In this document: one piece after another, positions 2,885 to 20,708 of the stretch
Position numbering within the stretch: the stretch's first letter is position 1
Layout: each line of letters starts with the position of its first letter
Assembly: GCF_002214605.1 (NCBI RefSeq)
Contig: NZ_CP015193.1
Location: forward strand, 1,344,978 to 1,408,977
Direction of reading: 5' to 3'
Length of the DNA stretch: 64,000 nt
Origin: Thermococcus chitonophagus
Lineage (GTDB): Archaea > Methanobacteriota_B > Thermococci > Thermococcales > Thermococcaceae
Notes under the pieces: generated by a model
Told to the model about the DNA's origin: nothing
What the model saw: only the letters and a program-made list of their open reading frames with translations
The model's database searches: none
Position numbers and translations under genes: made by a program

Positions 2885-3226
2885 ATGAGTGGCAGAACAT
2901 CACTGGGTTTAGAAGAGAACGTTGAAGCAGCTCTAAGTTACGTTGGGATCTTCGTTACCGGCATAATAATCTTGGCCTTAGAAAAGGAAAGTGAGTTCGT
3001 GAGGTTCCATGCTCTCCAGTCAACGATAACGTTCCTAGGTTTGATAATCCTAGGTGCAATTTTCAGTGTGATCCCGATTATCGGATGGGTATTCAATACG
3101 ATAATAACGGTCATTGCCGTAATAGCATGGATACTTGGAATAATAAAGGCTTATCAAGGAGAGAAGTTTAAATTTCCAATAGTTGGGGATTTGGCCGAAT
3201 CTTGGCTTCCAAAGATTAACATCTGA
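2885..3226 (+). CDS. Small membrane protein, DUF4870/Tic20-like
   Basis: A 113-residue protein with a short soluble N-terminus, the conserved-looking segment SEFVRFHALQS and three predicted hydrophobic helices (about 18-34, 49-65 and 70-90). The layout matches the DUF4870 family of small multi-pass membrane proteins, whose function is unknown. A purine-rich ribosome site (AAGGGGGAAG) precedes ATG 2885. The secreted Lon-like protease gene follows after 51 bp with its own TATA-like sequence (near 3237), so co-transcription is uncertain. Confidence 0.75.
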   Translation: MSGRTSLGLEENVEAALSYVGIFVTGIIILALEKESEFVRFHALQSTITFLGLIILGAIFSVIPIIGWVFNTIITVIAVIAWILGIIKAYQGEKFKFPIVGDLAESWLPKINI

Positions 3227-3277
3227 AGCGAAACCCGTATATATCTTATACCCATTTCTATTTTTGGTGGGCTGAAA

Positions 3278-5188
3278 ATGAAAAAAGAAGCTATAATATC
3301 GCTTTTTATTGCGATAGCCTTTCTTCTTGAGCCAGCTCTTGCCCAGTGTCCATGTGAAGGAAGAACAGTAATCCTAAAGGCGCCTGCAGTTTCAATGACA
3401 TCTACAGGTGAGATGATAGGTGTCCCAACAGAATTCGTGATCACAGTAGCTCCAGGAAGCGGACATGTATATGTTGAAACATGGCCCCTAACGGAGGTTG
3501 ATATGCAAGCATCAGCAAGACTTGCAGCAGAGGTTGCAGGTAGGGTTCTTGGCATAGACATGAGCAAATATGATGTCTTCATTCAAGTAAAAGCAGATTC
3601 CCCAATAATTGGTGGACCTTCAGCGGGAGGGACAATGACAGTAGGAATAATCGCAGCATTAATGGGATGGAAAGTCAGGAGCGACGTCATGATGACGGGA
3701 ATGATAAATCCCGATGGTAGCATAGGCCCGGTAGGGGGAATCTTAGAAAAAGCTTCGGCTGCCCATCAGGCGGGAGCCAAAATCTTCCTAATTCCAGAGG
3801 GACAAAGGATCCAGGTGGTTACTGAAACCCAGAGAAAGCAGATTGGTCCAATAACACAAATTACAACCACACAGAGAAGAGTTGATGTTGCAAAGTATGC
3901 TGAGGAGAGATGGGGATTAAAAGTAATAGAGGTTAGGGACATATACGATGCTGTCTACTACTTCACGGGGCACAAGCTTGAAAGACCCAAACCTAAAGGG
4001 AAAGTTATAATAAGTACAAGCTTTCTTGAAAGCGATGCAAAGCAAGACTACCAAATGACACTTAACTATTACAAGAATATTAGTGAGAAACTCAAAAACA
4101 GTGATGTAAGTTACTCTACATACAGCTACCTTAAGGCAGCTCTGGATGATGCCTACAAAACACTTCAAGAAGCAAAACAGGCTTTAGATAACGGTAAGTA
4201 CTACACGGCCATGAGCCTTGACTTCCAAGCAAGAATAATCATAAGGCACGTGGATTGGTATATTGACGTTTATGAAGGAAGAGATCTTGAGGATATATTC
4301 CTCGAAGTTAAGAAAGAGATTGATAGTGTTGAAAGTTACGTTTCAAACTTAACGATTAAAGGCGTCACAATGTTACAAGCAGTTGCTGCAAGTGAAACAA
4401 GAATAGAAGATGCAAAAGAGTACCTAAAGGAGGCTCAAGCCTCATACTACAAACAGGACTATTGGGATGCTGTAAGTAATGCTGCATACGCATATGAGAG
4501 GGCAAAAACTGCCAAGCTTTGGGCAGAGCTCGGGGAGAGATATGCAAGGGGAGAAGTCATCTCACGTGAAGCTATTAAGAGAGCAGCAAGAAATCAGCTC
4601 GATAATGCAAGGCTCATAGTTACCTATATAACCTCAATGTTCGGCCAGCAAAACCTGCAGGACTTGATAAACACTCTCAACAAAGGAGAACAGTATTATG
4701 AGGATGGTAAATACTCGGCAGCGCTCTTCTCCGCTATGGAGGCTAGGATTAGGGGAGAGGTAATACTGGACACTATAGGAATTGACAATGTAACAGTACT
4801 TAAAGACAAGCTAAAGATGATGAAAGAAGAAGCCAAGACAGCAATTGGACTTGCGGAGGAGGGGGGAACAGTCCCCCTGCTCTCGATGGCTTATTATGAG
4901 TTTGCAGAGAGCTACGAAGCTAAAGGAGATCCTCAAGATATAATAACTGCAATGATATTCTACCAGTATGCAAAGGAAACGGCGATGGTGTTCCTGGGTT
5001 GGAAGTCTAGTAGTGAAAGCACAAAAACTACAACGATATCTTCACCCATAAGCCAAAACAGCACAGAGGTTACAACAACAGTAACAGTGACAAAAACGGA
5101 GACGGTAAGTGGAACGGGGACAAAAGTATGCGGGCCCGCGATAATGGTGCTGATAGGAGCTCTAGCGGCAATCTTCAGGCGCCGTTGA
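3278..5188 (+). CDS. Secreted, surface-anchored Lon-like (S16) serine protease with CGP-CTERM tail
   Basis: A 636-residue protein. Residues 1-22 form a signal peptide ending in PALAQ. An S16 (Lon) proteolytic domain follows, with the nucleophile in GGPSAGG (Ser115) and the general-base lysine in GGILEKA (Lys158); the 43-residue spacing equals that of the E. coli Lon dyad. There is no AAA+ ATPase domain. Residues 260-590 are alpha-helical, repeat-like and rich in Tyr/Ala, resembling helical hairpins. A Ser/Thr-rich linker leads to a C-terminus with CGPA, a hydrophobic helix and RRR, the CGP-CTERM sorting signal of Thermococcales. It is probably a cell-surface protease; substrates are unknown. 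Its end overlaps the convergent PP-loop gene by 14 bases. Confidence 0.88.
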   Translation: MKKEAIISLFIAIAFLLEPALAQCPCEGRTVILKAPAVSMTSTGEMIGVPTEFVITVAPGSGHVYVETWPLTEVDMQASARLAAEVAGRVLGIDMSKYDVFIQVKADSPIIGGPSAGGTMTVGIIAALMGWKVRSDVMMTGMINPDGSIGPVGGILEKASAAHQAGAKIFLIPEGQRIQVVTETQRKQIGPITQITTTQRRVDVAKYAEERWGLKVIEVRDIYDAVYYFTGHKLERPKPKGKVIISTSFLESDAKQDYQMTLNYYKNISEKLKNSDVSYSTYSYLKAALDDAYKTLQEAKQALDNGKYYTAMSLDFQARIIIRHVDWYIDVYEGRDLEDIFLEVKKEIDSVESYVSNLTIKGVTMLQAVAASETRIEDAKEYLKEAQASYYKQDYWDAVSNAAYAYERAKTAKLWAELGERYARGEVISREAIKRAARNQLDNARLIVTYITSMFGQQNLQDLINTLNKGEQYYEDGKYSAALFSAMEARIRGEVILDTIGIDNVTVLKDKLKMMKEEAKTAIGLAEEGGTVPLLSMAYYEFAESYEAKGDPQDIITAMIFYQYAKETAMVFLGWKSSSESTKTTTISSPISQNSTEVTTTVTVTKTETVSGTGTKVCGPAIMVLIGALAAIFRRR

Positions 5189-17989: not shown

Positions 17990-18002
17990 GGTTTTTAAAT
18001 TA
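17990..18002. promoter_or_regulatory. Two-way TATA element between the HAD phosphatase and riboswitch operons
   Basis: GGTTTTTAAATTA reads as a TATA box on both strands. To the right, 25 bp gives a start near 18022, exactly where the structured leader begins with GGCCGG. To the left, it gives a start near 17971, ten bases before the phosphatase ATG. A second AT-rich box at 18014-18020 would start inside the leader and is less consistent with it. Confidence 0.5.
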
Positions 18003-18021: not shown

Positions 18022-18178
18022 GGCCGGAACCCAGGAGATGAGCCGAAACCGGCAACGGGAGTAGGTAATCCTTGGGTTCCGTTGGGGCGATGGCGCCCGC
18101 CCGGGGCTTCGAGCCCGAACCGCCTCCCGTTGGGAGGCTGATGGCGCCTATTCTGAAAGCTTTACGGGAGGCGAGAGT
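18022..18178 (+). ncRNA. Structured 157-nt leader with a fluoride (crcB-type) riboswitch
   Basis: Two domains. Domain 1 (18026-18080): GGAACCCA pairs with TGGGTTCC, extended by GGA/TCC, enclosing a GCCG/CGGC hairpin; not recognised. Domain 2 (18084-18154) matches the fluoride aptamer: GGGC-GATGGCGCCC-GCCC (P1 hairpin), an extra GGGCT/AGCCC hairpin, AACC, P2 GCCTCCC/GGGAGGC, then CTGATGGCGCCTATTCTG. The loop GGCGCC (18092-18097) and the 3' GGCGCC (18143-18148) can form the pseudoknot. P2's 5' strand CGCCTCCCGT (18121-18130) is perfectly complementary to ACGGGAGGCG (18164-18173), which contains the ribosome-binding site of the next gene. This suggests translational control, on with ligand. Confidence 0.82.
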
Positions 18179-19033
18179 ATGGGCTCGAAGCTGAAGGAGT
18201 TTATTAACTTAGAAAAGGTGCTCGAATACGTTGAAAAGAGAAGACACGATGATGGAGGATACTGTTTCGTATCTCAACTCTCAGATACAAACATAAACGA
18301 CACGTATTATGCCGTAAAGATTTACACTCTACTTGGAATGGAAGTTCCAGAGAAAGAGAAGACAATAGAGTTCCTCTATAACTCGGCACAAATGCAGACA
18401 GCAGCCGTTGGAGTCGCAATGGCCATCGAAGCTCTAGCAATTCTAGGGGCTAAGGATTTGGCTAGAGAGAAGCTAGAGCTACTGTTCAAGAAGTACAATC
18501 CAGTGGAAGGAAAATTTGCCGTTGGATTAGGGGGAAGTGAAGAGTTCGGAACGGCAACACCACTTGAGGCAACTTACTGGGCTTCCAAGGCCATGGAATC
18601 CGTAGACTACAGACCATCTCAGGAAATGAAAGAGAGAATTATGGAGTTCATAATGCAGTACAAAATGGGTGACGGCTTTGGTGTGGAGCACCCGACGACA
18701 ACGATGACATATCAGGCATTGTACTCACTTAACTTCTTGGGACAGAAAATCGACACTAGACATTTTGAGCTCTGTGAAGTTTGTGGGGACTGGGGAGGCT
18801 TCACGGAAGTTCCCAACTCTCTTCCACCATACATAGAGCCAACGTTTTACGCACTGAGAGGACTGCAGATGCTTGGAAAGAGGGCCACATGCATAAGAAG
18901 ACACATTAAGTTCATAAAAGCCTTGCAGAATCCGAACGGGGGATTCAGGAGAAGCTACGAGCTGGGGATTTCAAACTTCCAGAACACATATAGGGCACTC
19001 GCAAGCTTGGATGTACTTGTAAGGTGGCTGTAA
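18179..19033 (+). CDS. Prenyltransferase/squalene-cyclase-type alpha-alpha toroid protein
   Basis: A 284-residue all-helical protein with Gly-rich repeat turns (HDDGGYCFV, GDGFGVEHP, CGDWGGFTE, NPNGGFRRS) typical of the toroid fold shared by protein prenyltransferase beta subunits and terpene cyclases. Cys and His residues occur (FELCEVCGDW, RATCIRRH), but a full zinc site or a cyclase DxDD acid motif is not clear, so enzymatic activity is uncertain. ATG 18179 has GGGAGG seven bases upstream, inside the riboswitch leader. The stop overlaps the ATG of the next coiled-coil gene (TAATG), so the four genes to trm5b form one unit. Confidence 0.8.
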   Translation: MGSKLKEFINLEKVLEYVEKRRHDDGGYCFVSQLSDTNINDTYYAVKIYTLLGMEVPEKEKTIEFLYNSAQMQTAAVGVAMAIEALAILGAKDLAREKLELLFKKYNPVEGKFAVGLGGSEEFGTATPLEATYWASKAMESVDYRPSQEMKERIMEFIMQYKMGDGFGVEHPTTTMTYQALYSLNFLGQKIDTRHFELCEVCGDWGGFTEVPNSLPPYIEPTFYALRGLQMLGKRATCIRRHIKFIKALQNPNGGFRRSYELGISNFQNTYRALASLDVLVRWL

Positions 19034-19344
19034 TGGAGATTTGGGTATCTGAAGAGGATATAGAGTTAATAAAAGCCAATAAGGAGAAGATAGAACAAAT
19101 ACTCAGATCAGAAGACAAACTCAGAGAGCTTCTTCTTTCCCTTAAATTTAAATTTCTTAAAGAACGACAATCTGCTTTAGAAAATAGATTAAGCAGAGTC
19201 TCCACAGAGTATGAAAGACTTGTAAAATTCTATGTACAGGCTGAGAATGACAAGATGAAAATGATGGAGCTAAGACTCAAGCTCCATAGAGAGAACGAGA
19301 GGTTAAGGAGGCAACTAAATGAAAGTCGTCTTCAAAGCAAGTAG
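19033..19344 (+). CDS. Small coiled-coil protein 1
   Basis: A 103-residue, highly charged protein; residues 20-100 look continuously coiled coil, ending RENERLRRQL. Not recognised. The ATG overlaps the stop of the toroid gene (TAATG) and AGGTGG lies seven bases ahead; GTG 19024 is a less likely start. It appears distantly similar in layout to the next gene: a short N-terminal domain, then a helix ending EN-x-RLR-x-x-L. Confidence 0.7.
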   Translation: MEIWVSEEDIELIKANKEKIEQILRSEDKLRELLLSLKFKFLKERQSALENRLSRVSTEYERLVKFYVQAENDKMKMMELRLKLHRENERLRRQLNESRLQSK

Positions 19345-19738
19345 ATGGAACAAAGTTTCTATAGACGTTCCCGAAAAAGCCCTAAAAATGATAGAAAAAA
19401 GTGATTTTGAACTAATTGAAGTAATAAAAGCTATATGCAATGGAGAACTTGAAAACGAATTCTTGAATGACAATTTCGAAAAGATAGAGAAACTGGAGAA
19501 AGAACTCTTTGAGTTGGAAGGTAGATGGTCCTCAATTAGATTCAAAGCCTACCAACTAGCCTTAGATAATAAGAACTTAGCAATTCAACTATCAGGCATG
19601 ATAGCTGAAAATGCACGACTCAGAAAAATGCTTGGATTAGAAGAAGGAGACTACCGAGAAGCTAAAGAACTTATAAAGAGATACCTAGTATTCAGTGGGA
19701 CGGAGAATGGTTCTAGCGGTAAAAGTTCCCAGGACTGA
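19319..19738 (+). CDS. Small coiled-coil protein 2
   Basis: A 139-residue protein with a short beta-like N-terminus (MKVVFKASRWNKVSIDVPEK), a long helix with heptad-like spacing (residues 40-105, including AENARLRKML) and a Ser/Gly tail. Not recognised. It overlaps the upstream gene by 26 bases and trm5b by 32, so translation is probably coupled. The pairing of two coiled-coil proteins suggests a hetero-oligomer, but that is inference. Confidence 0.7.
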   Translation: MKVVFKASRWNKVSIDVPEKALKMIEKSDFELIEVIKAICNGELENEFLNDNFEKIEKLEKELFELEGRWSSIRFKAYQLALDNKNLAIQLSGMIAENARLRKMLGLEEGDYREAKELIKRYLVFSGTENGSSGKSSQD

Positions 19739-20708
19739 GGGAGAGAAAGTTAGGAGGAAGTTACTCGAGCGTGGCGTGCTCGATAGGGGATACAAGATAA
19801 AAGTTGAGGGGGACTACATTCTCATCCCCGTAACTTCTGAGGTTGAGGGATTTGATATTGTTGATGTTGAGCTTGAAAAAGCAGAGAGAAGACCACACAG
19901 TTATAGAGAGGTAGTAAAGATACCAGAAACCCTACAAAAATTCCTTCCAAGCTCGTTCGACATAATAGGGGACATAGCGATAATAGAGATACCCGAGGAG
20001 CTCAAAGGATATGAGAGAGAAATTGGGGAGGCAATAATAAAGGTTCACAAGAACGTTAAGGCAGTATTCATGAAGGGAGGAAATGTTGAAGGAGAATACA
20101 GGGTCAGAGAGCTTATTCCCATAGCGGGAGAAAAGAGAACTGAAACCATCCACAGGGAGAACGGGATAAGGCTGAAGCTCGATGTTGCTAAGGTTTACTT
20201 CTCCCCCCGCCTAGCAACTGAGAGGATGAGGATATTTAACAGGACAAAAGCCAGAGAAGTTGTTTTCGATATGTTCGCGGGCGTTGGCCCTTACTCAATC
20301 TTGCTGGCTAAGAAGGCAAAAATTGTCTTTGCGTGCGATATAAATCCCTGGGCCATAAGATACATGGAGCAGAATATAAAGCTGAACAAGACATGGAACG
20401 TCGTTCCAATCTTAGGAGATGCCAGAGAAGTTGCGAAGAAAGTCAAAGCGGACAGGATAATAATGAACCTGCCAAGGTTTGCCAAAGATTTCTTAAGGGA
20501 AGCATTCACAAGCGCTAAGAATGGAACAATTATCCACTACTATGGATTCGGACCAGAGAAAGATCCCTTCGAAGACCACATTTGGGCTATTAAGAGGGTA
20601 GCCCGAGAATTCAACGCTGACGTTGAAATACTGGATAAAAGGATAATAAGGAACTATGCTCCCAGGCGGTACAACATAGCCATAGACTTCAAGGTCACCT
20701 TTTCATAA
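19707..20708 (+). CDS. trm5b: tRNA (guanine37-N1)-methyltransferase, Trm5b type
   Basis: A 333-residue SAM-dependent methyltransferase making m1G37, which prevents frameshifting and, in tRNA-Phe, leads into wyosine synthesis. Visible are the N-terminal D1/D2 region, [30 protein letters not shown] split across the D2/D3 boundary, SAM motif [20 protein letters not shown], and the NLP catalytic loop (MNLPRFA). The sequence agrees with Trm5b rather than Trm5a of Pyrococcus, whose equivalent loop is different. ATG 19707 is chosen over GTG 19695 because the protein then starts at the conserved MVLAVKVP. The 3' end overlaps fen1 by 14 bases. Confidence 0.92.

Follow-up and report, generated by a model that had tools for sequence, protein, structure and literature searches.

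The window analyzed here, a stretch of 64,000 nucleotides from Thermococcus chitonophagus, carries on its forward strand a structured leader followed by a compact group of genes. The controlled unit is the one named in the original prediction: a toroid-fold protein of 284 aa, encoded by the first controlled gene (18179..19033; PF00432, E = 3.9e-15), two small, predicted coiled-coil ORFs (19033..19344 and 19319..19738), and trm5b (19710..20708; NF047730, 642 bits). Upstream, a TATA-like element read from the sequence, TTTTTAAA (17992..17999), represents the predicted promoter of the leader; an equivalent box is located approximately 25-30 nt 5' of the aptamer in Thermococcus relatives, and 5' of an additional hairpin in Pyrococcus. 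This structured hairpin, present only in Pyrococcus, precedes the aptamer at 18025..18080, and its outer stem covaries, with both sides changed in 8 of 20 predicted pairs. Its core, ATGARCCGAAACCGGYAACGGRAGTAGG, is fixed and common to a dispersed Thermococcales repeat: near-identical cores (mostly CTGA...) were detected between genes in 40 of the 94 Thermococcaceae genomes surveyed, in up to 13 copies, and a control search of the 94 genomes with the reversed pattern returned zero matches. One repeat locus resembles HgcC (31.8 bits) and sot0042, both sub-threshold. Our guess is that the hairpin may represent a domesticated repeat RNA, perhaps with a connection to IS200/IS605 elements; its assignment to the fluoride aptamer, or to any known Rfam family, was ruled out, as no Rfam match was obtained there in the window.

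A covariance search of the window (cmscan) located the fluoride riboswitch aptamer RF01734 at 18077..18157, scoring 44.8 bits against a gathering threshold of 34, with E = 3.6e-9 over the whole window and an alignment spanning the full model (1-64). The crcB riboswitch call was thereby borne out, and the layout proposed for it was correct, as P1, AACC, P2, UGAUG and the pseudoknot strand are all located where they had been placed. In the P1 stem-loop, GGGCGAUGGCGCCCGCCC (18085..18102), positions 18085-18089 pair with 18098-18102, and the loop (18092-18096) provides the 5' strand of the pseudoknot, which pairs with GCGCC in the 3' tail (18144-18148). P2 is formed by GCCUCCC and GGGAGGC (18122-18128 with 18132-18138); its 5' arm is contained in CGCCUCCCGU (18121..18130), and its 3' arm, UGAUG and the pseudoknot 3' strand together occupy 18132..18148, according to the cmscan alignment and pair counts. 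The same alignment shows the conserved segments GAUGG, AACC and UGAUG to be all present. The extra hairpin that had been noticed between P1 and P2 is real: it corresponds to GGGGCUUCGAGCCC (18103..18116), and most relatives of the window leader have it as well. Across 58 distinct related leaders, 98.2% of the aptamer pairs are standard, with seven pairs changed on both sides; the pseudoknot is conserved and paired in 58/58 (100%), one of its pairs having changed from U-A to C-G in Pyrococcus. Judged from its sequence, the window element is a fluoride riboswitch aptamer, and this copy would be expected to bind fluoride. It shares with the crcB motif (RF01734; PMC2864571) the aptamer core, the stems, the pseudoknot and the position in the 5' leader, but differs from it in the hairpin inserted between P1 and P2, the 3' part of which is complementary to the start codons of the gene.

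We then surveyed 94 genomes of Thermococcaceae, among which the riboswitch was found in 88, crcB in 82, and the toroid gene in 90. Of 103 riboswitch matches in these genomes, 88 are found no more than 200 nt 5' of the toroid gene and 15 precede a formate-hydrogenlyase-like operon, and none (0/103) is located directly upstream of crcB (within 300 nt). Seen from the gene, 88 of the 90 toroid genes have a riboswitch. The usual order, on a single strand, is riboswitch, toroid gene, DUF6062 protein, two coiled-coil ORFs, crcB and DUF190, although in some relatives crcB-DUF190 comes directly after the toroid gene; in 73 genomes crcB lies no more than 4 kb downstream of the toroid gene on the same strand. 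Both coiled-coil ORFs are ancestral operon members, orthologues of the first being found between the toroid gene and crcB in most relatives. In Pyrococcus, including the genome of the window, crcB-DUF190 is located elsewhere, without a riboswitch (295 kb away in the window's genome), and trm5b comes after the coiled-coil ORFs, a downstream position seen only there. A separate relocation of crcB has taken place in another genome (G019), where the riboswitch is still found with the toroid gene. Even with a permissive threshold, crcB showed no riboswitch in front of it in either Pyrococcus or G019.

These observations modify the original prediction in two respects. The first gene does lack a known fluoride function, but it is not foreign to fluoride biology, as its orthologues are usually part of one operon with crcB-DUF190. 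Similarly, trm5b is indeed downstream, but Trm5b is unlikely as a meaningful target, since that position is limited to Pyrococcus. The riboswitch has been kept with the toroid gene despite relocation of crcB (Pyrococcus and G019) or its decay (G010, a Pyrococcus genome), which supports the assignment of the toroid gene to the fluoride regulon. The toroid protein may be a new fluoride-resistance factor, as had been suggested, with a putative role in fluoride stress.

Several loci depart from the family pattern. In G010 (L103, ~3165-3326), crcB is a frameshifted pseudogene and the riboswitch and the toroid gene are intact (93% identity); DUF190 was not found in this genome. The two toroid genes without a riboswitch match belong to G011 and G080. 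In G011, also from Pyrococcus (L108, ~5000-5170), the aptamer has lost its 5' part and only the 3' tail is left, with the toroid gene and its start sequence kept; crcB, DUF190 and CLC are all absent from this genome, so that a CLC exporter as a replacement for CrcB was rejected. In G080 (L105), the toroid gene is a pseudogene, the riboswitch is gone and crcB is intact, and DUF190 is matched by two overlapping fragments, with an internal TAG. In addition, one Thermococcus genome (G072) has a second, more divergent crcB (L107, C1:287380-287706).

The toroid protein itself is of the prenyltransferase-type alpha-alpha toroid class. Its AF2 model (pLDDT 91.5, pTM 0.90) has as best Foldseek match the RabGGTase beta subunit (3dss_B), with a TM score of 0.74, and both the PF00432 match and Foldseek assign it the toroid fold of protein prenyltransferase beta subunits. 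This alpha-alpha toroid fold is shared with RabGGTase beta, protein farnesyltransferase beta and type II terpene cyclases; identity to RabGGTase beta is about 17%. Many residues are invariant, a pattern that points to an active or binding site; assigning a zinc or cyclase site at the residue level was dropped, as the alignment to PDB chains was too weak. No relatives were found among same-phylum genomes outside the family, and all 25 toroid loci from a genome scan (25/25) are labelled Thermococcus, Thermococcaceae, Thermococcales or Thermococci; a distribution beyond Thermococcaceae was rejected on both counts.

The aptamer and the beginning of the toroid gene are complementary in two blocks. 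The 11 nt of GCUUCGAGCCC (18106-18116), in the insert hairpin, are perfectly complementary to GGGCUCGAAGC (18181-18191), a segment that begins at the G of AUG, covers codons 2-4 and ends with the first base of codon 5. Moreover, CGCCUCCCGU, the proposed anti-Shine-Dalgarno segment, is an exact 10-nt complement of the Shine-Dalgarno (SD) region ACGGGAGGCG (18164..18173), which was read from the sequence and in which GGAGG (or GGGGG) is kept in relatives. The two-block match is also found in most relatives, the second block being ACCGCC with GGCGGU in Thermococcus. The minimum-energy fold of the window leader, computed with no ligand or pseudoknot, is the masked OFF form (-64.8 kcal/mol at 37 °C), in energy models that leave out Mg2+, the pseudoknot and in vivo conditions, and both OFF blocks persist in the fold predicted at 80 °C. 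Across relatives, the plain energy model has SD and start at least 60% paired with the aptamer middle in only 41 of 74 leaders, which counts against this masking. By complementarity and folding, the pairings of the aptamer segment with itself and with the SD and start regions are mutually exclusive, because the insert hairpin and P2 need the same bases.

The start codon and codons 2-5, AUGGGCUCGAAGC (18179..18191), are conserved at the nucleotide level, and codons 2, 4 and 3 (GGC, AAG and TCG) rank 1, 2 and 5 of 136 conserved codons in synonymous invariance; GGC is used at codon 2 in 69/69, whereas the median entropy over the gene's conserved glycine codons is 1.77 bits. When the native codons were compared with their synonymous alternatives for pairing with the aptamer segment, they ranked in the top 5% in 64 of 74 leaders. 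Furthermore, a canonical start is present in all 62 leaders that keep the complement, and changed in 6 of the 12 that lost it (Fisher p = 5e-6, uncorrected for relatedness); against this, the start sequence persists in six leaders from which the complement has gone. The start helix is 94.3% paired (n = 58 leaders), compared with 33-51% for the whole structure when slid. Compensatory changes are almost absent from the OFF helix, with one clear two-sided change, located in the SD helix: in locus L124, one SD pair is changed on both sides (ACUGCC/GGCAGU). None was found in the start helix across the 58 leaders, and for this reason the OFF structure does no better than shuffles in the same set. 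Covariation was thus set aside as proof of the OFF helix, which is argued instead from complementarity, synonymous constraint and co-loss.

Based on these results, we propose that the leader is a translational fluoride ON switch, with an aptamer that carries its own anti-start sequence, a reading that we regard as likely. Without fluoride, the aptamer middle (18106-18130, that is, the 3' part of the insert hairpin and the 5' arm of P2) would form two blocks of pairs, one with the SD region (18164-18173), the other with a stretch comprising the final base of the start codon together with codons 2-5 (18181-18191). With the start region masked in this manner, ribosomes would be unable to initiate on the toroid mRNA. 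In the presence of fluoride and Mg2+, P1, the insert hairpin, P2 and the pseudoknot would form and hold the middle segment, and the start region would be freed. The toroid protein would then be made, as would the coiled-coil proteins and, in the majority of relatives, CrcB and DUF190. In this proposal the most plausible role of the insert hairpin is that of expression platform, and the presumed direction of switching is ON with fluoride.

Other explanations were weighed against this one. The true target could be crcB (and DUF190), reached by read-through from the toroid operon, with the toroid protein being unrelated to fluoride. The location of crcB within 4 kb after the toroid gene, on the same strand, in 73 genomes is what one would expect in that case, but the riboswitch has remained with the toroid gene in Pyrococcus and G019, which have crcB elsewhere, and in G010, where crcB is broken; moreover, crcB has its own start site in T. 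kodakarensis (PMC4247193). Taken together, we consider this explanation unlikely. If the fluoride riboswitch controlled transcription or mRNA stability instead, either through attenuation or by releasing a stable leader RNA, the complementarity to the start would be incidental. Such a mechanism would account for the 86-nt crcB RNA reported from growing T. kodakarensis cells, and undetected in stationary phase (PMC4247193), but the window has no oligo-U tract 3' of the aptamer, and attenuation gives no role to the synonymous constraint on codons 2-4, which makes it rather improbable.

It is also conceivable that the Pyrococcus aptamer is a fluoride-blind relic, which lost sensing once crcB had moved and persists by drift, as could be suspected from the distant crcB without a riboswitch in the window's genome, and from the degraded aptamer next to a retained toroid gene in G011. 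Nevertheless, the eight Pyrococcus genomes that keep the aptamer show no damage to its core, to either stem or to the pseudoknot, and compensatory changes in the pseudoknot and P2 are specific to Pyrococcus; we give such a relic very little credence.

The 15 riboswitches without a link to the toroid gene were found, on reading the loci, before hycD, in a formate-hydrogenlyase-like operon (Pfam: NADHdh, Proton_antipo_M, Complex1_49kDa and Oxidored_q6) beside valS; L055, L068, L069, L071, L074, L076, L079 and L082, among others, lie between valS and the operon. The aptamer of this class has no insert hairpin. Its start sequence, GUGACGCC, copies the pseudoknot strand: the start region GGAGGUGACGCC repeats the strand GAUGACGCC, giving the P1 loop GGCGUC two possible partners. 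A start region of this class, GGAGGTGACGCC, likewise mimics the pseudoknot strand. In addition, UUCCGGG at the 5' end of the aptamer complements CCCGGAA in the coding region, and the predicted duplexes range from -22 to -26 kcal/mol. The codons ACG, AAC and CCG are invariant, which is weaker evidence, because 35 of 237 codons in this small set are equally invariant. In the loci read, the arrangement is analogous to the start masking proposed for the toroid class and counts in favour of it. Three toroid-linked aptamers (L054, L080 and L109) lack the insert hairpin, resemble the hycD class and have changed start codons; replacement by the second riboswitch class is possible in these cases.

Part of this picture is already known. 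The motif has been described in archaea, some copies being tied to formate hydrogenlyase genes (Weinberg 2010, PMC2864571), and many of the motifs in that work overlap terminators, whereas the platform predicted here is translational and overlaps the aptamer. The P. abyssi element was among the candidates of Phok 2011 (PMC3124441), where Northern blots gave no signal, and its confirmation by RNA-seq is cited in a 2014 map of T. kodakarensis (PMC4247193), which found the crcB RNA preceding TK0513 and not crcB (TK0514), a placement called surprising. The element in these two organisms, and its placement before a gene other than crcB, are thus previous knowledge (PMC4247193). Judged by the gene order (switch, TK0513, crcB), the T. 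kodakarensis RNA is the same element, and TK0513 is presumably the toroid orthologue; Pyrococcus differs in the absence of crcB-DUF190 downstream, in the additional 5' hairpin and in a longer P2. Moreover, Speed 2018, as cited in PMC8241225 and PMC11549558, is described as reporting a working fluoride-responsive system in T. kodakarensis, and translational control is presumed for that element (PMC8241225, citing Speed 2018). As far as checked, two points are new here, namely the gene rule that holds across the family and the base pairing between the insert hairpin and the start codons, although some of the platform model may already be present in Speed 2018.

Overall, the 2014 oddity of a fluoride RNA before the "wrong" gene becomes a family-wide rule. 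The predicted platform would be a compact and testable translational platform for an archaeal riboswitch, in a field with few verified cases, and for a riboswitch that is already in use as an expression tool. A wider view, tentative and perhaps wrong as a whole, is that the toroid protein may be a Thermococcaceae-specific fluoride-tolerance factor independent of CrcB, that its start codons may have evolved a double reading, as protein and as partner of the insert hairpin, and that a second, independently built version may control the formate-hydrogenlyase-like operon. In any case, the analysis points out a candidate fluoride-tolerance gene in hyperthermophiles.
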